A stretch of 38,647 nucleotides of DNA. Origin: Sharpea azabuensis DSM 18934 (GTDB lineage Bacteria; Bacillota_I; Bacilli_A; Erysipelotrichales; Coprobacillaceae). Positions 14,972 through 30,094 of the stretch are shown piece by piece. Both the position numbers and the translations under genes were made by a program. Location: positions 1 to 38,647 of the forward strand of contig NZ_JNKU01000027.1 of NCBI RefSeq assembly GCF_000702165.1, given 5' to 3'. Under the pieces are notes generated by a model that worked only from the letters and a program-made list of their open reading frames with translations, did no database searches and was not told the origin of the DNA. Numbering within the stretch: position 1 is the first letter of the stretch; the number at the start of each line of letters is the position of its first letter.

Positions 14972-17455
14972 ATGAAGAAAAATGTATTAAAGAAAGCTAT
15001 TCCCCTTACTGTTGCAGCAACAATGATGAATGTTGTACCAGTAGCAGCTTATGATAAAGATGAAACTGTATATACAAAAGTAGATGGTGATGGCAATGTC
15101 ACTTATCAGGTTGTTTCAGAACAATTAAAGAGTTCTAAGAAAGAAGAAATCAAAGATCATTCTGACTTATCAAATATCAAGAATATTTCTGGTGATGAAA
15201 AGTATAAGAAAGATGGTAATGATTTAACTTGGAAGAGTAAAGGTAATGATATCTTCTATCAGGGTAAGACAACAAGACAGTTACCTATTACTGTTGAGAC
15301 ATCATATAAACTCGATGGACAGGAAATTAGTCCTAAAGATGCTTCAGGCAAGAAGGGACATGTAGAAATCTCATTCAAATATACAAATAATGATAAACAT
15401 GACTATAATGGTAAAACACTCTATACACCATTTACTATTGCCTTAGCTACAACACTTAATTCTGACAACAACAAGAATGTCACAATCAACAATGGTAAAG
15501 TCGTTAATAATGGTGAAAATAACATTATCGTAGGTGTTGCAGCACCTGGTTTATATGAATCATTAAACATAGATCAGTTAAAGAGTTTTGATGAAATCAA
15601 GATTGAATTTGATACAACAGATTTAGATATTAAATCATTCTATTCTGTTGCCACACCTAAACTTGCAACTGCGGATGATATCAATAATATGTTTGATAAG
15701 ATTGATGGTTCATTTGATGACCTCAACAAACTTAAAGATGCGACTAACCAGTTAGTTACTGGTACATCGGACTTATCAAAAGGTGCTAAAACACTAAGTG
15801 ATGGTACAAAGACATTTAATTCTGGCTTAGTAACTGCTAATTCAGGGGCTGGTTTATTGACTAAGAACTCTAAGAGCTTAAGAGATGGTGCTAGTCAGCT
15901 AGCAAGTGGCTTAGGTACTCTTTCTAGTGGATCAGGTGCACTTGTTGATGGCTTAAAGAAAGCGGCAACAGGTAGTGATGAACTTACAAAAGGTCTTGCT
16001 CAGGCCAAGGCTGGTACTGATGAAATGAATGCTGGTAAAGGCAAACTTTCTTCAATGAAAACACAGTTAACACAGGCAGCATTTACGCAGGTTGCTTATG
16101 GTATGCAGGCTAGTGCTGGGGCAAAATACTATGAAACAATGAATAAGCAATTAGCTACAAATGAAGATGGCACAGCTGCTAGCAATGCTAAATTAATGTC
16201 AGCTATTCAGAATGCTGCTGGTGCTACAGGTGCTAATATGGCTTTAAAAGCTCAGGTTCAGGCTCTTAATACAAATATTGCTGCTATCAATAACAATGCT
16301 GGTGGTCTTAAAGACAAAACTGCTAAAGAAGCAAGAGATACAGTTATTGCAACAGCTATTAAAGAAGGTAAAGCACCTGCTGGTTTAACTTATGAAGCAT
16401 TAGATACATTAATCAAACAGGCAACTAATGGTGCTACACAGGCTGCTGCAGGCGCTAAGCAGGCTGCCGATGCCGCAGCTAAGTATGCCCAGGAGGGCGA
16501 TGCTGCCAATGCCGCAACATATAAAGCTAAAGCAGAACAACTTGAAAAGACAGCTAATGATGCAAAAAATCAAGCTACACAATTAACTGTTTTAAAACAA
16601 TCTGCGGATATTGCTGGCAGCACAGCAGTTGCAACAGCATTAGCGACATTAAAAAAGGTTAAAGATAGTGTAGAAGCTTCACTTAATGCTGGTGCAACTC
16701 AACAGGGCAGTAATGCAAATGTCGCTGATCTTAAGGATGTCGCTAATAAGACTGCAACCGGCTTAAAGACAAGCCAGGAAGGTACGGTAGCTGCATATCT
16801 ATTAACTACTGATTCAAAGGCATTAGCTAAAGAAGTAGCAGCTGCTTATACAGCTTATAAGAATGGTACTAAGCCTACTTCAAAGGGTGCTCAGATTGTA
16901 ACTGCATTGAATGCGGATCCTAACAACAAGATTGATGGAAAAACAATCTTTGAAACAATTGATAGTGTTGCATCACAGACTGGTGATATTGATAAGTTAG
17001 TAAATGGTATTACATCATTAAGTGATGGATTGAATAAGCTATATGCTGGATCAAGTCAGTTATCTAGTGGCTTAGATACTGCTGTCGACAAATTACCAAC
17101 ACTTACAAATGGTATTTCTGCATTAGTAAGTGGTTCTTCTAAGTTAAATGCTGGTACGAAGGAATATACTGAAGGCGTTGATAAATTAGCCGGTGGTGTT
17201 TCTCAGTTAACAAGTGCATTTACTCAGATTGTTAATGGTAGTGCTCAGTTATCAACTGGTGCTGATAAGTTAGCAAGCGGTATGTCTGAATACAAGACGA
17301 CTGGTATTGATAAGTTAACTGAACTTGCTGATACATTAAATGGTGATAGTGATACAGCTAAACAGTTAACAAAGTATGCTGATGAATATACTTATACAGC
17401 TACAAACAAGGACGCTAATTATACAACAAAGTTTGTATATATCGTTCAGGAATAA
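14972..17455 (+). CDS. Secreted protein with Leu-x-x-Gly heptad repeats, partner of the exporter
   Basis: An 827-residue protein with signal peptide (cleavage likely after VAA, residue 26). A beta-rich segment (about 35-240) precedes two blocks of heptads of the form L..G (for example SDLSKGAKTLSDG, QLASGLGTLSSGSGALVDG, then again near 675-790), as found in YhgE/Pip-like proteins. Between them lies an alanine- and glutamine-rich helical insert of about 250 residues. There is no sortase signal or terminal membrane helix, so it is released or held by its partners. It probably assembles with the MMPL protein encoded just upstream. Its last 51 codons, stop and terminator recur at 19743. Confidence 0.85.
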   Translation: MKKNVLKKAIPLTVAATMMNVVPVAAYDKDETVYTKVDGDGNVTYQVVSEQLKSSKKEEIKDHSDLSNIKNISGDEKYKKDGNDLTWKSKGNDIFYQGKTTRQLPITVETSYKLDGQEISPKDASGKKGHVEISFKYTNNDKHDYNGKTLYTPFTIALATTLNSDNNKNVTINNGKVVNNGENNIIVGVAAPGLYESLNIDQLKSFDEIKIEFDTTDLDIKSFYSVATPKLATADDINNMFDKIDGSFDDLNKLKDATNQLVTGTSDLSKGAKTLSDGTKTFNSGLVTANSGAGLLTKNSKSLRDGASQLASGLGTLSSGSGALVDGLKKAATGSDELTKGLAQAKAGTDEMNAGKGKLSSMKTQLTQAAFTQVAYGMQASAGAKYYETMNKQLATNEDGTAASNAKLMSAIQNAAGATGANMALKAQVQALNTNIAAINNNAGGLKDKTAKEARDTVIATAIKEGKAPAGLTYEALDTLIKQATNGATQAAAGAKQAADAAAKYAQEGDAANAATYKAKAEQLEKTANDAKNQATQLTVLKQSADIAGSTAVATALATLKKVKDSVEASLNAGATQQGSNANVADLKDVANKTATGLKTSQEGTVAAYLLTTDSKALAKEVAAAYTAYKNGTKPTSKGAQIVTALNADPNNKIDGKTIFETIDSVASQTGDIDKLVNGITSLSDGLNKLYAGSSQLSSGLDTAVDKLPTLTNGISALVSGSSKLNAGTKEYTEGVDKLAGGVSQLTSAFTQIVNGSAQLSTGADKLASGMSEYKTTGIDKLTELADTLNGDSDTAKQLTKYADEYTYTATNKDANYTTKFVYIVQE

Positions 17456-17493
17456 TGTAGTATCTAGACAATGATGACATATGTCGTCATTGT
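17301..17493 (+). repeat. Direct repeat, copy 1 (3' end of the heptad-repeat gene plus terminator)
   Basis: 193 bases starting CTGGTATTGATAAG, covering the last 51 codons of the heptad-repeat gene, the stop and the terminator hairpin. The second copy is at 19743-19935 in the same orientation with two mismatches (A/G in the coding part, T/A in the hairpin loop) and no gaps. The ATPase/RloB module lies between them. Confidence 0.95.
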
Positions 17494-17500
17494 TTTTTTT
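17468..17500 (+). terminator. Intrinsic terminator of the exporter operon
   Basis: CAATGATGAC and GTCGTCATTG pair (one G-U) around ATAT, followed by eight T. Confidence 0.85.
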
Positions 17501-17607
17501 GTTTTTTATTGATAAATCTATTTTGCGAAATAAATGTAAAATGAATCAAAAATATGGTGAAAAATAAGGAAATATGATATTATACTGAAGTGAGGAGGTA
17601 GAATGAT

Positions 17608-18924
17608 ATGCTTTTAGAATTTGAGGTAGAAAACTATAAATCTTTTCAACATCGTGCTTTATTTTCAATGGTACCTGCCCCTAAACAACACGGTTTAGAC
17701 TATAGTGTCTTTCAAGAAAAAGTGAAGCGTAAGAATGTGAAATCATTATGTTCGTCAGTCATCTATGGTCCTAATGCATCAGGCAAAACAAATATTATTG
17801 GTGCTATGGATACGCTCAGAGCGATTATTTTACGTGGAAATATTCGCAATAGCGAAGAACAGGACTCGCCTAATCAAGCAGCGTATCATTTAGAATTAAT
17901 ACCGAATAATCGCTGTAAAGAAGTATGTCCTGTGCTGTTCAAGATTTCTTTTTTGGAAGATGGCTTGAAGTTTACGTATGAATTAAGTGTTTTACTAGGA
18001 CAATTTTTAGACAATACCTATGATAGAACTATAGAATATGAAAGGTTAGTAATTAATGATGAACTTATCTTTGATAGAACTGATCAGGTGACTCTTGGAA
18101 ACTTAAAGAGATTTAAAGAATATGTAGCAAAGGAAATTATAAAAAATGAAACAATACAATTTGTAATAAATCAAAGTTTAGTCAAAGATGAATTATTCCT
18201 TGCTAATGGTTTTAAAAGTATCATTTCACAAGTACTCTCAAAAAAAATAATTGACTGGTTCACTAATAAACTTATGGTTATATATAGCGCTAATTCCATA
18301 CAATTAATTAGACGTTTTTCTAATCCTGATAAAAATACGATTTATGTAGAAAAAACAATGAATGAAGCTGCAAAAATATTTGGAATTAATTCAAATGATT
18401 TAGCTTATGTTCAAAATGGAGAAGATGGAAAAACAAAACTATGTTCGATTTTTAAAACAAATGATCAGAAAATTCAGGCTATCCTTGCGGATGTGTTTGA
18501 ATCTTATGGGACAATCCGTTTCATTAATTTATTTCCTCTCGTAGTACAAGCGATATACACAGGAGGTACTTTAGTGATTGATGAATTTGATGCTTCTATT
18601 CATCCAATGGCATTGATGAGTATAATTAGTGTTTTTCATAATGATGAAATAAATAAAAAGAAAGCTCAGCTCATTTTTAATACACATAATCCTATCTTCT
18701 TAAATGCGAATATTTTTAGAAGAGATGAAATTAAATTCGTAGAGAAGAATGATGAAACACATTTAAGTGAGATTTATTCATTATCTGATTTTGGTACAAC
18801 AGGAGAAAAAGGTGTTCGCAAAGGGGATGACTATATGAAAAACTATTTTGTAAGTCAGTATGGAGCTATTAAAGACATTGATTTCTCACCGTTATTTGAA
18901 GATATCATGTTAGAGGATGATTAA
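17608..18924 (+). CDS. AAA15/21-type ATPase of an AbiL-like defence module (AbiLi-like)
   Basis: A 438-residue ABC-class ATPase of the OLD/AAA_21 type: N-terminal strand LLEFEVENYKSF, Walker A GPNASGKT at 54-61, Walker B TLVIDEFDASIHP with D325 and E326, and a switch histidine in NTHNP at 358-362. Together with the next gene (an RloB protein two bases downstream) it matches the arrangement of the AbiL abortive infection system, in which an ATPase senses or powers and the RloB protein acts. The assignment rests on domain pairing, not on a search. GAGGAGGT precedes the start. The gene lies between two copies of a 193-bp repeat and is more AT-rich than the exporter genes. Confidence 0.8.
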   Translation: MLLEFEVENYKSFQHRALFSMVPAPKQHGLDYSVFQEKVKRKNVKSLCSSVIYGPNASGKTNIIGAMDTLRAIILRGNIRNSEEQDSPNQAAYHLELIPNNRCKEVCPVLFKISFLEDGLKFTYELSVLLGQFLDNTYDRTIEYERLVINDELIFDRTDQVTLGNLKRFKEYVAKEIIKNETIQFVINQSLVKDELFLANGFKSIISQVLSKKIIDWFTNKLMVIYSANSIQLIRRFSNPDKNTIYVEKTMNEAAKIFGINSNDLAYVQNGEDGKTKLCSIFKTNDQKIQAILADVFESYGTIRFINLFPLVVQAIYTGGTLVIDEFDASIHPMALMSIISVFHNDEINKKKAQLIFNTHNPIFLNANIFRRDEIKFVEKNDETHLSEIYSLSDFGTTGEKGVRKGDDYMKNYFVSQYGAIKDIDFSPLFEDIMLEDD

Positions 18925-18926
18925 TT

Positions 18927-19589
18927 ATGGCTAGTAGAAAATCAACTAAGAAATATTATTTCAGCGTAGAAGGACAAACAGAACAATGGTATTTTAATTG
19001 GCTAAGTAATGAAATTAATAATAATGAAAAATCCACGCATAAAGTATCTTTTGACATAAAAGTTGAAAAGGATCCTCTTAAAAGGGCTAAGAAATTGATG
19101 ATTACACAAAAAACCATAATATTTCATATTTCTGATTACGAAAGCAATGAAGAATTTCATGAAAATCAGTTTAAGAAAACTATGGATTCAATGAAAAAAG
19201 CTAGCAATTTAGGTAAACAGATTACGTATCGTTTTGGATATAGTAATTTCACCTTTGATTTATGGATTTTGCTGCATAAGATTGATTGCTCTGGTACTCT
19301 TTCGCATCGAAATAATTATTTATCCTTCATTAATCGTGCATTTGGCGAAAAATATTCAAGCATGAATGATTACAAACATGAGAATAATTTCAAAAAGTGT
19401 TTAGCGCAGTTAACAATTGAGGATGTACGGAATGCGGTTCAAAGAAGCAAAGACATCATGAATCAAAATTTAAAAAAGGGGTATATTCTACAAGAATATA
19501 GAGGATTTACGTATTACAGAGAAAACCCTTCGTTATCTGTTTGGGAAATTGTGGAAAGGATTTTAATTGATTGCAATCTTTTAGCATAG
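18927..19589 (+). CDS. RloB-domain protein (AbiLii-like), likely Toprim-fold effector
   Basis: A 220-residue RloB-family protein. The first strand and loop read YFSVEGQTEQWYF (residues 11-23), where the glutamate is the Toprim-like acidic residue; the second acidic motif is HISDYES near 68-74. The segment FDLWILLH near 107 is also typical. Toprim-like nucleases use such residues to hold metal, so DNA or RNA cleavage under control of the upstream ATPase is inferred. Two bases separate the genes, so they are translated together. No terminator of its own is evident; the repeated terminator at 19911 may serve. Confidence 0.78.
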   Translation: MASRKSTKKYYFSVEGQTEQWYFNWLSNEINNNEKSTHKVSFDIKVEKDPLKRAKKLMITQKTIIFHISDYESNEEFHENQFKKTMDSMKKASNLGKQITYRFGYSNFTFDLWILLHKIDCSGTLSHRNNYLSFINRAFGEKYSSMNDYKHENNFKKCLAQLTIEDVRNAVQRSKDIMNQNLKKGYILQEYRGFTYYRENPSLSVWEIVERILIDCNLLA

Positions 19590-19742
19590 AACTTCGTAAC
19601 AATCTTTATATGAATTTTGTCTCAATGATTTTAAATAATTGATTATGGTTTACATATTTTGCAAATGGTGAATCACTGCTTATTAGCGGTGTTATAAAAT
19701 CCATGATAAATTGACTAATACTAATATATTCTAGCGTTATCG
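19590..19742. other. Right junction of the defence module
   Basis: AT-rich non-coding DNA between the RloB gene and repeat copy 2. I see no integrase, no inverted repeats and no terminator. It is the place to look for an attachment or crossover signature. Confidence 0.4.
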
Positions 19743-19897
19743 CTGGTATTGATAAGTTAACTGAACTTGCTGATACATTAAATGGTGATAGTGATACAGC
19801 TAAACAGTTAACAAAGTATGCTGATGAGTATACTTATACAGCTACAAACAAGGACGCTAATTATACAACAAAGTTTGTATATATCGTTCAGGAATAA
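19743..19897 (+). pseudogene. Duplicated 3' fragment of the heptad-repeat gene
   Basis: The frame encodes the same last 51 residues (GIDKLTELADTLNGDSDTAK and onward to VYIVQE) and stop as the gene ending at 17455. No start or ribosome binding site precedes it; the frame meets a TGA 42 bases upstream. One synonymous difference (GAA to GAG) indicates little divergence since duplication. Confidence 0.9.
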
Positions 19898-19935
19898 TGT
19901 AGTATCTAGACAATGATGACAAATGTCGTCATTGT
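19743..19935 (+). repeat. Direct repeat, copy 2
   Basis: Second copy of the 193-bp sequence at 17301-17493: 191 of 193 positions identical, no gaps. Upstream of its first base the sequence is unrelated to copy 1. Confidence 0.95.
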
Positions 19936-19944
19936 CTTTTTTTT
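19911..19944 (+). terminator. Duplicated intrinsic terminator
   Basis: Same hairpin as at 17468 with loop ACAA in place of ACAT and a longer T-run interrupted by one C. It can end transcripts of the ATPase/RloB pair. Confidence 0.75.
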
Positions 19945-20022
19945 AAAGTGATTCTGTTAATTGTAAGTAGTTACTTTTTGCTGTGGTTTTGATGAATTAA
20001 AATTTTATTTTCAACTAAAGTA

Positions 20023-20031
20023 TGGTATTAT
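20023..20031 (+). promoter_or_regulatory. Extended -10 promoter of the structured RNA
   Basis: TGGTATTAT is an extended -10 (TGn plus TATTAT) placed to start transcription at about 20037-20038, the first bases of the closing helix of the RNA. The -35 position (TTTTAT) is weak. A near-identical element, TGGTATAAT, lies at 33973. Confidence 0.5.
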
Positions 20032-20035
20032 AGAC

Positions 20036-20160
20036 ATGCGAATAGATTGCTATTTGGGAAAGCAGCAAATTATTTTATATTCATTGGAATTAATATTATA
20101 ATGATCATATTATGCGTGGAAAATCTATTTGCATATGAGACACTTTTGTGTCTCTTTTTG
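20036..20160 (+). ncRNA. Structured small RNA candidate with its own promoter and terminator
   Basis: ATGCGAATAGATT (20036-20048) and AATCTATTTGCAT (20122-20134) form a 13-bp closing helix with a single G-U pair, enclosing about 73 bases that can fold further (TCATT/AATGA, and ATTTG/CAAAT). An intrinsic terminator follows after two bases. With the extended -10 just upstream this gives a free-standing transcript of about 120 bases. No open reading frame fits. It is shorter than 6S RNA, lacks the signal-recognition-particle loop and shows no riboswitch core I know. A separate TATAAT near 20172 can serve the downstream operon. Confidence 0.6.
20137..20160 (+). terminator. Intrinsic terminator of the small RNA
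   Basis: GAGACAC and GTGTCTC pair perfectly around TTTT and are followed by TTTTTG. Confidence 0.85.
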
Positions 20161-20192
20161 TATTTTCAGTGTATAATAGCTAAAAAGGAAAA

Positions 20193-20984
20193 ATGATGAA
20201 TATGAAGAAAGCAAAACTGACAAAACAAACAAAGATTATCTTAGCTGTTATAGCTTTACTTCTAGCTGGACTTGCAACCTACAAAGGCGTAGAGTACTAC
20301 AAGCTACAACAGGAAATAAGCAGGGGACGGGCTTATTTAAAAAAGTTAGATGATCAATCATTATCAAGTATTAAGAATACGATAGATAAACAAAATGAAA
20401 GTGATGAATTAGCCCTTGGGAAACAGGCCCTTAAAGATTATGCGAAAAATAAGGATAAGCTATGGGGCGCGTTTAAGAACTATGTGCTTATTGGTGATAG
20501 CAGGGTGGAGACATTTAAGCTCTTCTTGCCTGAAACGAATGTCCTCGCTAAAAAGGGGACAAGAATTACCAAGGTTGATGATTATTTAGGAACAATCAAG
20601 AATATTAGTCCTAAGTATGTCTTTATTAGTTATGGTGTCAATGACTTAAGTATTCCCGCTTATTATAATCAGGATAAATATATTGAAGTTTATCAGTCCT
20701 ATTGTGAAAAGATTAAAAAGGCAGCGCCGGATGCTACTATTTATGTAAATTCCATCATTCCTGTTAATAGTAAGGCTATTAATAAGCAGGCTAACTATAA
20801 GAATATCCCTGCTTATAATGCAAAGCTCAAGGCAATGTGCAAGAAGAATGGTTATAAATATGTTGATCTTGATAGTCTTGCAAAACAATATCCTGAAGAA
20901 TATGAACAGGATGGCATTCATTTCAAGAGTAGCTTTTATAAATACTGGGCTTATCGCCTATTAAGTAGTGTATATGGAGGATAA
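20193..20984 (+). CDS. Membrane-anchored SGNH/GDSL hydrolase of an O-acylation cluster
   Basis: A 263-residue protein with one N-terminal membrane helix (about residues 13-30) and an extracellular SGNH domain. Block I is VLIGDSRVE with nucleophile S103, block III GVND near 152, and the catalytic pair is D240 and H243 in DGIHF. It heads a four-gene set with a DUF4358 protein, an MBOAT acyltransferase and a DHHW protein, so it probably transfers or removes acetyl groups on a surface polymer after the MBOAT protein brings them across the membrane. AAGGA lies just before the start, and TATAAT near 20172 gives a short leader. Confidence 0.85.
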   Translation: MMNMKKAKLTKQTKIILAVIALLLAGLATYKGVEYYKLQQEISRGRAYLKKLDDQSLSSIKNTIDKQNESDELALGKQALKDYAKNKDKLWGAFKNYVLIGDSRVETFKLFLPETNVLAKKGTRITKVDDYLGTIKNISPKYVFISYGVNDLSIPAYYNQDKYIEVYQSYCEKIKKAAPDATIYVNSIIPVNSKAINKQANYKNIPAYNAKLKAMCKKNGYKYVDLDSLAKQYPEEYEQDGIHFKSSFYKYWAYRLLSSVYGG

Positions 20985-20987
20985 GTG

Positions 20988-21461
20988 ATGAGTATTAAGA
21001 TTACGAGAACATTAAGAATTTTATTGGTTGTTTTCATAGCTGTTTACATTGGTTTAACTGTCAAGGGGGCAACACCTAGTCAGACAAGCTTTGAGACAAT
21101 GCGCAAAGTCATTGCGAAATACCAAAATAAGAATACCCAGCTAGGAAATAACCAGGCTGTTAAAAGACTTTATAAGCTTAATCCAGCAGATTATGAAGGT
21201 GTATTACTCTATCAGCCTAGTAGTACAATGAATGCCGAAGAGATTCTTGTCGTTAAGCTTAAGGATAAGAGTCAGGCAAATGATGTAAAAAATGCGATTG
21301 AGGAAAGAAAGAAGACCCAGCTCAATACCTTTAAAGGGTATGGGGCAGCCCAGACTGATTTATTAAATAAAAGTATTATTGATGTTCAGCCAAATTACAT
21401 ATTATATGTTGTTGATGGCAAGGCTTCAGTCATTGATGATGCTTTTAGGAAGGCATTGTAG
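20988..21461 (+). CDS. DUF4358 family membrane-anchored protein
   Basis: A 157-residue protein with an N-terminal membrane helix (RILLVVFIAVYIGLTV) and an extracytoplasmic domain of the DUF4358 type: LYKLNPADYEGVLLYQPSS, then EILVVKLKD and ILYVVDGKASV near the end. Function is unknown, but these proteins recur next to MBOAT/DHHW genes. It overlaps or abuts the upstream stop codon; ATG at 20988 was preferred to the GTG at 20985 because GGAGG lies eight bases before it. Confidence 0.8.
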   Translation: MSIKITRTLRILLVVFIAVYIGLTVKGATPSQTSFETMRKVIAKYQNKNTQLGNNQAVKRLYKLNPADYEGVLLYQPSSTMNAEEILVVKLKDKSQANDVKNAIEERKKTQLNTFKGYGAAQTDLLNKSIIDVQPNYILYVVDGKASVIDDAFRKAL

Positions 21462-21472
21462 GAGGAGAATAT

Positions 21473-22819
21473 ATGGCATTTAATACAATTACATTCCTCT
21501 TTTTCTTCTTTCCAGTAACCCTCTTACTCTTCTTCTTAACACCTAAAAAATATCGTCAGTATACATTATTAATTACTTCATTTATCTTCTATTGTTGGGG
21601 GGATACAAAAAACTTAATCTTTATTCTCTTTAGTGCCCTCTTCAGTTATCTTTCAGCAATAGAAATAGAGAATTTGCAGAAAGAAAATAAAGACAAAGAG
21701 AATAAGATTGTCTTTATAACAACAATCATTGCTCATATTGGCTTATTGGCATTCTTTAAATATGCAGGTTTAATGAGCATGCCTTTAGGGATATCTTTCT
21801 ATACTTTCTCTGTTCTTTCTTATATCTTTGATGTCTATTATGGTAAATGTGGAGCAGAAAATAATATTTTGAATTATTTGCTTTATGTGAGCTTCTTCCC
21901 AAAAGTGATTTCTGGGCCAATTATACAGTTCCATGATTTTAAAAATCAGCTTGCTAACCGTATTGTGACAAGAAGAGGTGTTGTTGAAGGAACACAGCTT
22001 TTCATGCTTGGCTTATTCAAGAAAGTCTTGTTAGCCGATCAGCTTGGAATGGCTTATAGCTCATTTGCACAGACTGATACTGTTGTTGGCAGCTATTTCA
22101 CTGTCATCAGCTATGGATTGCAGCTATACTTTGATTTCTCAGGTTATTCGGATATGGCCATTGGCCTAGCAAGCATCTTTGGCTTCAATTTTGGCAAGAA
22201 CTTCGATGAACCATATACAAGTCACAGTATCAGTGAGTTCTGGCGTCGATGGCATATCAGTCTAGGGGCATGGTTTAGAGATTATGTCTATATTCCACTA
22301 GGCGGTAATCGTGTGGATACAAAGCGACATATTATGAATTTGCTCGTCGTTTGGCTTTTAACTGGTATCTGGCATGGTAATACATTAGGCTTTATCATCT
22401 GGGGACTTTATCATGGCTTCTTTGTCATTGGTGAGAAGTACTTCTTCCATGATCTCCATCAACGCATCAAACCAGGCTTACAAGTTGCCCTAACGAACAT
22501 TATTGTCTTTATTGGCTGGATTTTCTTCTTCTCGCCAACAATCAGTGATGCCTTTGGCTTAACAGGACGTTTACTAGGTATTCATGCAAGTGGCTTTATT
22601 TCTCGTCAGACGATTTACTATTTATTAGGAAATGGCCTGATTGTGATTGCCGGAATATTGTGTTGTATGCCAGTAATAATTAATGGCTATAAGAAAATTT
22701 TCATGATGAATAAGAAGAGAATGATATTCCATCTTATTTTCCAGGTTATTCTCTTGATTATATGTATTGCTTATATGATTGGTTCTACATATTCATCATT
22801 CCTCTATTTTGCATTCTAA
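21473..22819 (+). CDS. MBOAT-family O-acyltransferase (AlgI/DltB/PatA-like)
   Basis: A 448-residue polytopic membrane protein with about eleven helices. The conserved cytoplasmic region reads SEFWRRWHISLGAWFRDYVY (about 257-276) followed by IPLGGNR, and the invariant histidine is H301 in GIWHGN. It is expected to move acyl (probably acetyl) groups from a cytoplasmic donor across the membrane to the partner hydrolase-fold proteins encoded on both sides. The polymer acceptor (cell-wall polysaccharide, teichoic acid or exopolysaccharide) is not shown by sequence. GGAGGAG precedes the ATG. Confidence 0.92.
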   Translation: MAFNTITFLFFFFPVTLLLFFLTPKKYRQYTLLITSFIFYCWGDTKNLIFILFSALFSYLSAIEIENLQKENKDKENKIVFITTIIAHIGLLAFFKYAGLMSMPLGISFYTFSVLSYIFDVYYGKCGAENNILNYLLYVSFFPKVISGPIIQFHDFKNQLANRIVTRRGVVEGTQLFMLGLFKKVLLADQLGMAYSSFAQTDTVVGSYFTVISYGLQLYFDFSGYSDMAIGLASIFGFNFGKNFDEPYTSHSISEFWRRWHISLGAWFRDYVYIPLGGNRVDTKRHIMNLLVVWLLTGIWHGNTLGFIIWGLYHGFFVIGEKYFFHDLHQRIKPGLQVALTNIIVFIGWIFFFSPTISDAFGLTGRLLGIHASGFISRQTIYYLLGNGLIVIAGILCCMPVIINGYKKIFMMNKKRMIFHLIFQVILLIICIAYMIGSTYSSFLYFAF

Positions 22820-22832
22820 GGTGGTTATTGTT

Positions 22833-23951
22833 ATGTTGAAAAGATTTCAAAGAATTATTATCACAATTTTTTATGTGATTATTGTCTTTTTTTTGATTGC
22901 TGGCTTGATTATGCCAGATAAGAAAATGTCCGAGCAGGAAAACCGTACCCTTACGCAATTTCCTGAACTAACAACAACATCAATTACAAGTGGACATTTC
23001 TTTTCCCAGCTAGATGACTATTTATCTGATCAGTTCCTCTTCCGTGACCAGTTCATGAAGTTAAAAGTCAGGGTTGATAAGATTGAAGGAAAGCGTGAAT
23101 CGGCAGGTGTCTATCTTGGTCATAAAGGCTATCTTCTTGCAAAGAATGAAACACCAAACAAGAAAGCCTTGAACAATACTGTTCAAGCAATCAATAAATT
23201 CACATCATCCCATGAGAATATCTCAATGATGATTATCCCATCATCAGGTACAATTAACCCAGCCCTCCTGCCTTTTGGAGCCCCAATGCGTGATGGTATT
23301 CAAGACATTCATGATTTCACAAAGCAATTATCAAAGATTCAGATCATTGATAGTGCTGCAGGATTAAAGATATATAAAAATGATTATCTTTATTACAAGA
23401 CTGATCACCATTGGACAACATATGGGGCTTATCGTGAATTTTTAAGTGTTGCTAACAAGCTAGGTATTGAAAAGCCAATCACAAAATACAAGAAATATCT
23501 TGTCACTGATAGCTTTGAAGGAACACTAGCTAGCGAGAGTGGTGACCATACCCATAGCGATGAAATACATGTCTATGAACCAGAAACTAAAGTGAAGTAC
23601 TATGTCAACTATGTCATTGAAAACAAAAAGACAACTTCACTTTATGAAACAAAGCAGCTCAAAACAAAAGACCAATATACGCTCTTTGAGGGCGGTAACC
23701 ATCCAGTTGTCGAAATCAATACGACAAATAACAACCATAAGAACCTTCTTATCTTCAAAGATTCTTATGCGAATAGCTTTGTCCCATTCCTATATCCTTA
23801 TTATCAGAAAATCATTATGGTTGATCCAAGATACTATAATGATGATATCAATAAACTTATTGAGAACTATGACATCAACCAGTATCTGTTCCTCTATAGT
23901 GCTAATACCATGATGAAAGATACATCCCTGTCAGATTTACTCAATAGCTAG
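22833..23951 (+). CDS. DHHW-motif protein (AlgX/AlgJ-like), extracytoplasmic acyltransferase
   Basis: A 372-residue protein with an N-terminal membrane helix (ITIFYVIIVFFLIAGLI) and an SGNH-like domain. The DHHW motif is at 191-194 in YYKTDHHWTTYGAY, and a serine-containing loop LLIFKDSYANSFVPFL near 307-322 supplies the nucleophile. Related proteins (AlgJ, AlgX) finish acetyl transfer onto polysaccharide. I chose ATG at 22833 since the longer frame would overlap the MBOAT gene and lacks a ribosome binding site. It ends the four-gene operon with a terminator one base later. Confidence 0.87.
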   Translation: MLKRFQRIIITIFYVIIVFFLIAGLIMPDKKMSEQENRTLTQFPELTTTSITSGHFFSQLDDYLSDQFLFRDQFMKLKVRVDKIEGKRESAGVYLGHKGYLLAKNETPNKKALNNTVQAINKFTSSHENISMMIIPSSGTINPALLPFGAPMRDGIQDIHDFTKQLSKIQIIDSAAGLKIYKNDYLYYKTDHHWTTYGAYREFLSVANKLGIEKPITKYKKYLVTDSFEGTLASESGDHTHSDEIHVYEPETKVKYYVNYVIENKKTTSLYETKQLKTKDQYTLFEGGNHPVVEINTTNNNHKNLLIFKDSYANSFVPFLYPYYQKIIMVDPRYYNDDINKLIENYDINQYLFLYSANTMMKDTSLSDLLNS

Positions 23952-23975
23952 AAGAGGACTTTTTGTCCTCTTTTG
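23952..23975 (+). terminator. Intrinsic terminator of the O-acylation operon
   Basis: AAGAGGAC and GTCCTCTT pair around five T, followed by a T-rich tail. Confidence 0.8.
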
Positions 23976-26047: not shown

Positions 26048-29000
26048 ATGCTAGTTCATAATAAACATAAATTAAAAGTCATCACAGCGCTATTTTTGTG
26101 CGTCTTTATGGCCATTGTAACTTTGTATTCATATACCCATGCATTTGCAGACAATGCAATCGATTTAGGCAGTCAAGAGGGATGGGTCAGTAAAGTTTCA
26201 GTCAAGAAAAATGTAAATGGCGAGTGGCAAGAGACAACACAATTCAAAGATGGTGATGAAGTTCAGGTAGGTATTAATTATACGATACCACCGAATAGTT
26301 TTACGACTTCTCCATATCAGGTGAAATATCAGTTACCTAGCGGTATTACAATCACAAAAACTGAAAGTGGTATTGTCAAAGATCCTGATACTAAGGAAGA
26401 ATTAGGAACTTATCAAATTAGTATGGATGGTCTGATTACAATAACCTATAATGACCAATTCAATACAATTGAGGAATATCAGGGAACAGTGCAGGTAACT
26501 GGTTCGATATCTTCAAATGGAAGCGGAGAAAATGGTGAAATACATTTCCCTGGATCCAATACGACAATCACTGTTGAAAAAGAACATGAACAAAATGATA
26601 CTGATATTTTTGTGAAAAAAGAAGCACAAGTAGCTTCTGATAAGAAATCAATAAGTTATAAGGTCATTGTCTCAACAACAAAAGGAACTTCCGATGTTGT
26701 AAAAATTGAAGATGGGATTTGGGCATATAATGTAAATGCTGAATATGATATGAATTCATTCCAGCTAGTGAAGAAGAATGCTAGTGGGGGAAGTGAAGTA
26801 ATCTCTAACCCTAATGTGGTAAAGGACATTTATACAAATAAAGTGAAAATTGAAAATTTGCCAAAATTACAAGCTGGTGAATCCTATGAACTCAGCTATA
26901 AGGTGAATTTAACGGACATAATAGGATCAAATGGTGATGCTAAGGTTGGCAATACGGCTTCTGCAAATTCAGGTAAAAATTCCGATAATAAAAGTCTTGA
27001 AAGTCGTGTTTCTAATAGAATGATTAATAAATGGGGACAGAGTGATGGTGAGAATATTAAATGGACTGTCACTTTCAATGATGGGAAAGCAGATATCTCA
27101 CATTATGTTTTTACTGACACATTACCAGGTGAATGTGTCAATAATACCTTTAAGCTATCTGATATAAATGAGGTACCCATTGATACTCAAATCAATGGTT
27201 TGTTGTCATATGACGCAAATACAAAACAACTCAGAATTGACTTTTCTAAACTTCCAAAACAATATCAAAGCAAGCAGCTTAAACTTGTATATAGTACAAA
27301 GGCACCAGAGGTTAGTGATAATAGCCCAATAAAAGTTAGTAATACAGGCTATTTTGATGGCGATGGTCATCACTATTCGGCAAGTGCTAATGTTGAAGTC
27401 AAGCCTAATATTCATGTAGGCAAGACAAAGGCTTATGTACCACAAAAGATCGATGAAAAGCATATGCAATACTTCTGGAAATCGACAATTGGTAACTTTG
27501 AAGGTAAAAATGTAACAGAAATCACTTATGAAGATGAAATTAAAGATGCAATAATCGATAATCAGACCGTCGCAAATACACATTATACTTATGCCAAGAC
27601 TTTACAAGATGAACTTTACAAGAATGAGAATCTGATTGTCAGAAGCAGTGAGAATCATCAGCCTTTTTCAAAGGGTCAATACCAATGGACACTTGAATGT
27701 TATGATGCATCAGGAAATAAGATTGATAACAATAATACAACGCAACCTGTTCACAGTTTTAAGATTCATATCACATCTTCTTCACCATTGAAGGTAGAGA
27801 ATATTGAAATTCATTATTCTACCATTGGAGATATTTCGAAAGTAACGGAAGGTGCAACTGCAAACTATGGCAATAAAGCTTCCATCCCTTCTTTCAACAA
27901 TAATCCACTCAATAATGTCACGACAGAAACGCAACAGGAATATAAGAATGTAAAAGTTCTAGAAAAGCAGGTAAGTCTATATAATGAAAATATAGTCAAT
28001 AATCAGCCGTCCTATGTTTCAGGTAAGCTGAATGTCAATTATGATAAAATAGCTGAAGAAAATGGCAAGAAGGTTATTTATTATCGTCTGAAGATCCATG
28101 TTGCGCCAAATAGCAGTGGTGAGATAAAGATAATCGATAATCTTCCTAAAGGCATGCAATATGTTGATGGAAGCTTGGAGGGAGCTTTCTATGGCAGTGA
28201 GTACTATATTTATACAAGCCAAGGTAGTTATAATTTCAATACAACTCATAAGCCTTTAGTCAATAAAGATGAAAAAAGCGATGGTACAACAGAACTTACC
28301 TTTACAGTTTTAGATGGATATCAAGCTAATCAAGAACAAATCATTTTACTGAAATATAAAGCTTATATCTCGGATGACTATTGGCTTGATATGTCAAATT
28401 CCGCAAAGAGTTATATCAATAAAGCAATTTATAACAATATACCTGTAGAACAGGAAACTCATATTGCAAGAGATGTCAAGGCTGTGAAGAAATCAGGTAA
28501 ACAGAAAAAAGATGCTTCCGGCAATCCGACGAATCAAATAGAATATGCGATTGATATAAATCCGGCAGGTAAAGATTTGAATCCAAAAGGCAATACATTA
28601 GAATTAAAAGACAAACTTTCTATTCCTGGTAATTATTCTAAAATCAAGGCTTTCCTAGATTTAAAGAGTGTTAAGCTTTATAGCTATGATTCTTCAAAGA
28701 GTGATCACCGAGGTGTTCTTCTTGATAACAGTTTATATTCTTTACAATATGATAGTCAGACACATGTAATAAAACTGACGATACCTGATGAGCAGCCATG
28801 CGTATTTGTCTATGAGTATAATATCGATGGCATGAGTGAGTATGTCAATGCACCTGCGATTTCTAATAGTGCTGAATTAGCAGGCTTCTATTCTGATCAG
28901 AAACAGTTGCAATTAGATAAAACTTCATCTGGGGCAACACTTCAAACGGAAAAAATTGTAATCAAGAAGATTGATAGTGATAACTATTCAAGAGCTTTAC

Positions 29001-30094
29001 AAGGTGCAGAATTTTCTGTTGAAAAGCTTAACAATAAGAGTTGGCAATCTTTAAATCCACAAGACATTACATCCTTTAATTCACTTACAACGGATGATAA
29101 GGGAGAATTATTATTCACGAAATATGATAATAATGTACTCTATCGACTTAAAGAAACAAAAGCTCCTGATGGTTATAAGCTAGAAACAAAGCCATACTAT
29201 TTTGTTGCACTTGAAAATACTGAAGCTGATGCCTTCTTTACAAGTCTTGATCAGGCAATCAAGAATGATATACCTGGAAATGATGATAATGAGAAGAAAG
29301 CTAATATTCATTTCCTGGGAAATGAGGGTGGAACAATTTATATTCCAAATACATATACTAAGCTAACAATTCATAAGAACTGGCTGAATAAGGATGGATC
29401 AACTGATACTTCTAATAAGAGTCCAATTCATCTTACTTTATGGCGCTATAATACAAAATATGATAGTGCAAAAGTTACTCTTAAATACTTTATTGTTGAT
29501 GACAATGGAAATAAACAGAATTGGGGCGATGAGACTAGAAACTATGATGTGGAAAGAGGTACATCATTTACAGTGAAATGGCCTGAGAATACAACAAAAG
29601 GTATATTTAAAGTTATGTTCAATAACCAGCTAGATAGTAACCATACAAATCTTACATATACGTCACCAAATATCACAAGTGATAGTGTTATTGAGATATA
29701 TTTAAAGGGTTATCAAGGTAATAGTGCAGTTCAATTTGCTAAGCCACAACTTGCTTTAGATCAAACAACAGCTTATAAGCAGCAAGAGTTTAATATATCT
29801 CAGCTGAATAACTGGTCAAAATCATTTGAAAATTTACCTGCTGAAGATGAACAGGGACATAAGTATGTTTACAGCGTCATGGAAGAACCAATGGCTGGTT
29901 ATGATGTATCCTACAGCAATAATAATGGAATAACGACTGGTACCATTCAGGTTATCAATAAGAAGAATGATAGTGGTGTTCTTTTACCAATAACAGGTGG
30001 CCGGGGCACGGTATTAGGTTGCTTGACAGGTCTTATGTTTATTATGGCAACAAGTATTGTGATGTTGATGAAAGTGAAAAAGAAATACTTATAA
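26048..30094 (+). CDS. Large LPxTG-type pilus tip/adhesin subunit with SpaA domain
   Basis: A 1348-residue surface protein. The signal peptide ends after AFA (residue 34). Several beta-sandwich domains with DUF11/isopeptide-type patterns follow (repeats of 'DxL...G...V' style with KKEA, VEKEH and YKV strands). A SpaA/Cna-B domain begins near 970 (IVIKKIDSDNYSRALQGAEF) with an E-box in RLKETKAPDGY, then a second Cna-B-like domain with a long insertion starts at about 1100 (KLTIHKNW). The sorting signal is LPITGG at 1313-1318, followed by a hydrophobic helix and KVKKKYL. It is probably the tip adhesin or ancillary pilin, joined by the class C sortase encoded at 33119. Confidence 0.87.
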   Translation: MLVHNKHKLKVITALFLCVFMAIVTLYSYTHAFADNAIDLGSQEGWVSKVSVKKNVNGEWQETTQFKDGDEVQVGINYTIPPNSFTTSPYQVKYQLPSGITITKTESGIVKDPDTKEELGTYQISMDGLITITYNDQFNTIEEYQGTVQVTGSISSNGSGENGEIHFPGSNTTITVEKEHEQNDTDIFVKKEAQVASDKKSISYKVIVSTTKGTSDVVKIEDGIWAYNVNAEYDMNSFQLVKKNASGGSEVISNPNVVKDIYTNKVKIENLPKLQAGESYELSYKVNLTDIIGSNGDAKVGNTASANSGKNSDNKSLESRVSNRMINKWGQSDGENIKWTVTFNDGKADISHYVFTDTLPGECVNNTFKLSDINEVPIDTQINGLLSYDANTKQLRIDFSKLPKQYQSKQLKLVYSTKAPEVSDNSPIKVSNTGYFDGDGHHYSASANVEVKPNIHVGKTKAYVPQKIDEKHMQYFWKSTIGNFEGKNVTEITYEDEIKDAIIDNQTVANTHYTYAKTLQDELYKNENLIVRSSENHQPFSKGQYQWTLECYDASGNKIDNNNTTQPVHSFKIHITSSSPLKVENIEIHYSTIGDISKVTEGATANYGNKASIPSFNNNPLNNVTTETQQEYKNVKVLEKQVSLYNENIVNNQPSYVSGKLNVNYDKIAEENGKKVIYYRLKIHVAPNSSGEIKIIDNLPKGMQYVDGSLEGAFYGSEYYIYTSQGSYNFNTTHKPLVNKDEKSDGTTELTFTVLDGYQANQEQIILLKYKAYISDDYWLDMSNSAKSYINKAIYNNIPVEQETHIARDVKAVKKSGKQKKDASGNPTNQIEYAIDINPAGKDLNPKGNTLELKDKLSIPGNYSKIKAFLDLKSVKLYSYDSSKSDHRGVLLDNSLYSLQYDSQTHVIKLTIPDEQPCVFVYEYNIDGMSEYVNAPAISNSAELAGFYSDQKQLQLDKTSSGATLQTEKIVIKKIDSDNYSRALQGAEFSVEKLNNKSWQSLNPQDITSFNSLTTDDKGELLFTKYDNNVLYRLKETKAPDGYKLETKPYYFVALENTEADAFFTSLDQAIKNDIPGNDDNEKKANIHFLGNEGGTIYIPNTYTKLTIHKNWLNKDGSTDTSNKSPIHLTLWRYNTKYDSAKVTLKYFIVDDNGNKQNWGDETRNYDVERGTSFTVKWPENTTKGIFKVMFNNQLDSNHTNLTYTSPNITSDSVIEIYLKGYQGNSAVQFAKPQLALDQTTAYKQQEFNISQLNNWSKSFENLPAEDEQGHKYVYSVMEEPMAGYDVSYSNNNGITTGTIQVINKKNDSGVLLPITGGRGTVLGCLTGLMFIMATSIVMLMKVKKKYL

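Follow-up and report, generated by a model that had tools for sequence, protein, structure and literature searches.

The analyzed window comprises 38,647 nucleotides and corresponds to contig C25 of the 2.41-Mb genome of Sharpea azabuensis DSM 18934. Sharpea belongs to the order Erysipelotrichales and lives in the rumen and gut. On the forward strand of the window, an extended −10 motif (TGGTATTAT) was found at positions 20023-20031, with the TG dinucleotide at 20023-20024 and the hexamer TATTAT at 20026-20031. A good −35 region could not be identified in the sequence upstream of it. The predicted RNA starts at about 20036-20038, approximately 7 bases past the −10 hexamer and within the first base pairs of a closing helix. 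According to the folds, this helix is formed by a 5′ arm (20036-20048) and a 3′ arm (20122-20134) and consists of 13 pairs, one of which is G-U. It encloses a weakly paired internal segment (20049-20069; GCTATTTGGGAAAGCAGCAAA), which is a candidate interaction site, and an apical hairpin (20080-20105). The helix is separated by 2 nucleotides (20135-20136) from an intrinsic terminator (20137-20159; GAGACAC-TTTT-GTGTCTC TTTTT), in which a 7-bp stem (20137-20154) is followed by TTTTTG. The terminator represents the predicted 3′ end (about 20159), and the length of the predicted RNA is approximately 122 nt. The closing helix, the extended −10 just upstream of it and the terminator two bases downstream had been described in a sequence-only reading of this DNA, and all three could be located as claimed.

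The terminator ends about 33 bp upstream of an operon on the same strand (20193-23951), for which Pfam models indicate a GDSL hydrolase, a DUF4358 protein, an MBOAT acyltransferase and a DHHW/AlgX-like protein. The ATG of the first gene at position 20193 is preceded by the ribosome binding site AAAAAGGA and, further upstream, by a TATAAT hexamer (20172-20177). The latter is the putative −10 region that had been assigned to the operon in the earlier reading, and it was found to be conserved in Sharpea porci. Its position resembles that of candidate −10 regions in front of the same operon in other genera, and a good −35 region was not found for it. Further downstream (26048-30094), a protein of 1348 residues with SpaA and Cna_B domains is encoded, which is a pilin- or adhesin-like surface protein. 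Upstream of the RNA, an ATPase/RloB gene pair (17608-19589) matches the models of the AbiL abortive-infection system (AbiLi, E 7e-72; AbiLii, E 7e-14). The pair is flanked by two 200-bp direct repeats with 99% identity (17301-19942), which correspond to the 3′ end of the preceding gene together with its terminator. An integrase was not seen in the DNA that they enclose, and the cassette is missing in S. porci. The region looks like a defence cassette whose insertion duplicated the end of the gene.

The conservation analysis compared two sequences, the S. azabuensis window and S. porci, the sole other Sharpea genome examined. S. porci (NZ_VUNM01000004.1) has the RNA at the equivalent location, where it is flanked by the GDSL gene on one side and, on the other, by the large gene that follows the MMPL gene. 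Including its terminator, the RNA differs by substitution at 4 of 118 positions (approximately 120 aligned bases, 3.3%). The promoter stretch contains 2 substitutions in 33 positions, with no change in the extended −10 motif, and the stretch between the terminator and the start codon contains 1 in 32. Within the 4.4 kb that were compared, few stretches are conserved as well as positions 20100-20199 (50/50 and 49/50). In the neighbouring intergenic DNA about 17-21% of the positions are substituted, including 9 of 52 just before the promoter and 32 of 149 in the stretch that precedes the lactate permease gene. In the two genes that follow the RNA, 65 of 120 four-fold degenerate sites were found to be substituted. 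The terminator of the RNA is 100% conserved, whereas those of the neighbouring genes diverged by about 20% or more, as for the terminator of the upstream gene (9 of 46 positions). The terminator of the acylation operon (23952-23975) is not invariant like that of the RNA, since its sequence is changed while its stem is apparently kept, with the arms AGAGGAC/GTCCTCT in S. azabuensis and AGAGAGC/GCTCTCT in S. porci. The 6S RNA candidate of the genome has 100% identity to its S. porci counterpart; the RNA therefore evolves faster than 6S RNA and far slower than neutral DNA. This conservation is the decisive evidence for the reality of the predicted element.

All 4 substitutions are located in helices and retain pairing. 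In two cases an A-U pair is changed to G-U, and one pair is changed on both sides. One of the A-U to G-U changes affects the 5′ arm of the closing helix, and the 3′ arm is identical in S. porci, so that the helix is maintained in the relative. It does not contain the compensatory change for which the sequence-only reading had proposed a search, since the double change concerns the innermost pair of the apical hairpin, the loop of which also varies in length between the species. The three insertions or deletions are found in loops or unpaired stretches. The segment 20049-20069 is identical in both species and shows low to intermediate pairing probabilities in each of them, and the inner pairing is predicted differently for S. 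azabuensis and S. porci. In the covariation test 252 of 500 shuffles were as good as the observed alignment, a result that is statistically empty because only two sequences were compared.

The folding energy of positions 20036-20160 corresponds to a z score of −3.7 relative to shuffled sequences. Omitting the terminator, the z score was −1.9 and 11 of 200 shuffles were as stable, which means that the stability of the interior by itself is not unusual. Thermodynamics alone is therefore insufficient for the case. A helix of at least 13 bp was obtained in 17 of 1000 shuffles of the RNA body (1.7%).

Several known families were considered for this RNA. At the gathering score, only a tRNA was identified in the window using Rfam, and for positions 19900-20250 only chance-level matches were found with E values up to 10. 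The claim that the RNA is not a 6S RNA, SRP RNA, tmRNA or known riboswitch is in agreement with these results. No match to the 6S family RF00013 was obtained here at E values up to 10, and the 6S RNA candidate of the genome is located on contig C3 (42.3 bits, E 3e-7, just below the cut-off of 46.4 bits). The shape also differs, as the RNA has about 122 nt and a short apical hairpin compared to 160-200 nt and a long apical arm beyond the central bubble in 6S RNA. SRP RNA (RF00169) gave no match at this position and was found on contig C4 with 63.4 bits. No riboswitch family of Rfam matched. Three conserved GGA motifs suggested a CsrB-type sponge for CsrA, which was rejected since a search of the genome detected no gene for CsrA; an Hfq-dependent sRNA was rejected likewise, as a gene for Hfq was not detected either. 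Positive controls were detected in both searches. Weak matches elsewhere in the genome are scattered, single and AT-rich and form no array, which speaks against a CRISPR-associated RNA or a paralogue. A retron-type RNA, for which the closing helix was suggestive, was dismissed because S. porci carries the RNA without the ATPase/RloB cassette and no reverse transcriptase was found among ten neighbouring proteins scanned.

Neither blastn against the 41 other genomes of the family nor a covariance model run on 194 other genomes from the order identified a homologue, and the RNA is therefore apparently restricted to the genus Sharpea. One weak covariance match (E 0.036, genome G018) lies inside an ABC transporter gene, and the blast matches in genomes G013 and G030 are located in coding sequence or resemble it. 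In other genera, the regions that follow genes related to the upstream gene showed no similar RNA on inspection by eye, and plasmid, phage and viral collections contained nothing relevant.

The conserved block could be interpreted in other ways. It is very unlikely that only promoter or regulatory DNA is conserved and that the inverted repeat and the terminator are incidental. Helices of 13 bp are fairly frequent in AT-rich DNA (in 62 of 1928 stretches of 101 nt), but the expectation for such a helix whose end lies no more than about 6 positions from a given terminator is only approximately 0.005. Furthermore, the conservation covers a block of the length of the whole transcript, and the changes preserve pairing. 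The statement that the RNA contains no reading frame was nearly right. A frame of 31 codons exists, which is broken in S. porci, and a second frame of 21 codons starts at the predicted 5′ end without a ribosome binding site. The latter could represent a leaderless mini-gene for a peptide of 21 residues (ATG at 20036, TAA at 20101). It is open in both species, its start, stop and length are the same, and its first 12 codons differ by a single, synonymous change. However, its ATG is part of the 13-bp helix, and its second half differs because the frame is shifted in the middle by a deletion of 2 bases and an insertion of 2 bases. Conservation is strongest at 20100-20199, outside this frame. A mini-gene is thus extremely improbable, and the reading frames, which are not convincingly conserved, were counted in favour of a discrete sRNA.

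A cis-acting 5′-leader of the GDSL/DUF4358/MBOAT/DHHW operon, either a riboswitch or a protein-controlled attenuator in which a ligand or protein permits read-through past the terminator, has to be considered more seriously, though it appears doubtful. Its strand, its short distance to the operon and the order of RNA and operon, which is kept in both species, fit such a function. The same applies to the invariance of the terminator compared to those of the neighbouring genes, to the lack of a good −35 region for the TATAAT of the operon and to the conservation that runs through the terminator to the start of the operon, as a leader would also give. However, regulated termination in a leader depends on a pairing that competes with the terminator, and none was found for either of its arms in either species. 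Forbidding the terminator costs 7-9 kcal/mol and yields no strong upstream partner for its arms, and the closing helix and the terminator are separate. In S. azabuensis, read-through RNA could form a long helix between approximately 20108-20122 and the complementary stretch at about 20163-20180 around the TATAAT; this helix leaves the terminator formed, and the fold is not preferred in S. porci. The GDSL-DUF4358-MBOAT operon is present in several other genera of the family, where no comparable element was found upstream of it and a candidate promoter is located directly before it. The missing riboswitch match and the conserved TATAAT just ahead of the operon also speak against a leader, and a discrete sRNA followed by the promoter of the operon is the more economical reading. 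The earlier description, a structured RNA that has a promoter and a terminator of its own, is well supported by the sequence and by the conservation in S. porci. The RNA is probably free-standing; the layout of promoter, structured RNA, terminator, ribosome binding site and gene also fits an attenuated leader. It is improbable that the element belongs to a new class, be it one of genus-specific leaders that sense a cell-envelope or acylation signal and control the GDSL/MBOAT operon through regulated termination or one of sRNAs with a dedicated protein partner.

The locus is probably a gene for a discrete, intrinsically terminated sRNA of approximately 122 nt, which is confined to Sharpea among the genomes examined. 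RNA polymerase would start at the extended −10 (about 20036-20038) and stop at the terminator (about 20159). The resulting RNA would have its 5′ end locked in the 13-bp helix and the terminator hairpin as its 3′ end. Its working part may be the invariant, weakly paired and G-rich segment UUUGGGAAAGCAGCAAA together with the opposite strand GCGUGGAAAA, which could contact an mRNA or a protein in trans. As the genes for Hfq and CsrA were not detected, the RNA would act without either. Discrete transcription and action in trans are what we infer from the sequence elements and their conservation. When up to 3 mismatches were allowed, the sequence complementary to the invariant 20-mer had no match common to both genomes except the locus itself, so that the function of the RNA remains one that we infer.

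Most bacterial genomes can be expected to contain lineage-specific sRNA candidates, and the RNA described here is probably a lineage-specific sRNA as well; as a candidate it is real, new, narrowly distributed and ordinary in kind. A search of the open literature revealed no description of an sRNA from Sharpea. A strongly conserved RNA in a genome with no Hfq or CsrA detected would provide a handle on RNA regulation in this organism.

Compared to known systems, the RNA shares the promoter, the closing helix and the terminator ahead of an operon with riboswitch and attenuator leaders. It differs from them in that no antiterminator pairing and no family match were found and that it is not present before this operon in other genera. 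The closing helix, the internal open region, the apical hairpin and the probable free-standing organization are similar to 6S RNA (RF00013; 6S-1/6S-2), whereas the length of approximately 122 nt instead of about 160-200 nt, the short apical arm and the missing Rfam match are not. In contrast to the intergenic trans-acting sRNAs of the Firmicutes, the exposed segment is G-rich and not C-rich, and therefore pairing to ribosome binding sites is not the obvious mode of action; the RNA also belongs to no Rfam family. With these sRNAs it has in common its own promoter, an intrinsic terminator, a length in the range of about 100-200 nt, the intergenic location and a narrow phylogenetic range.
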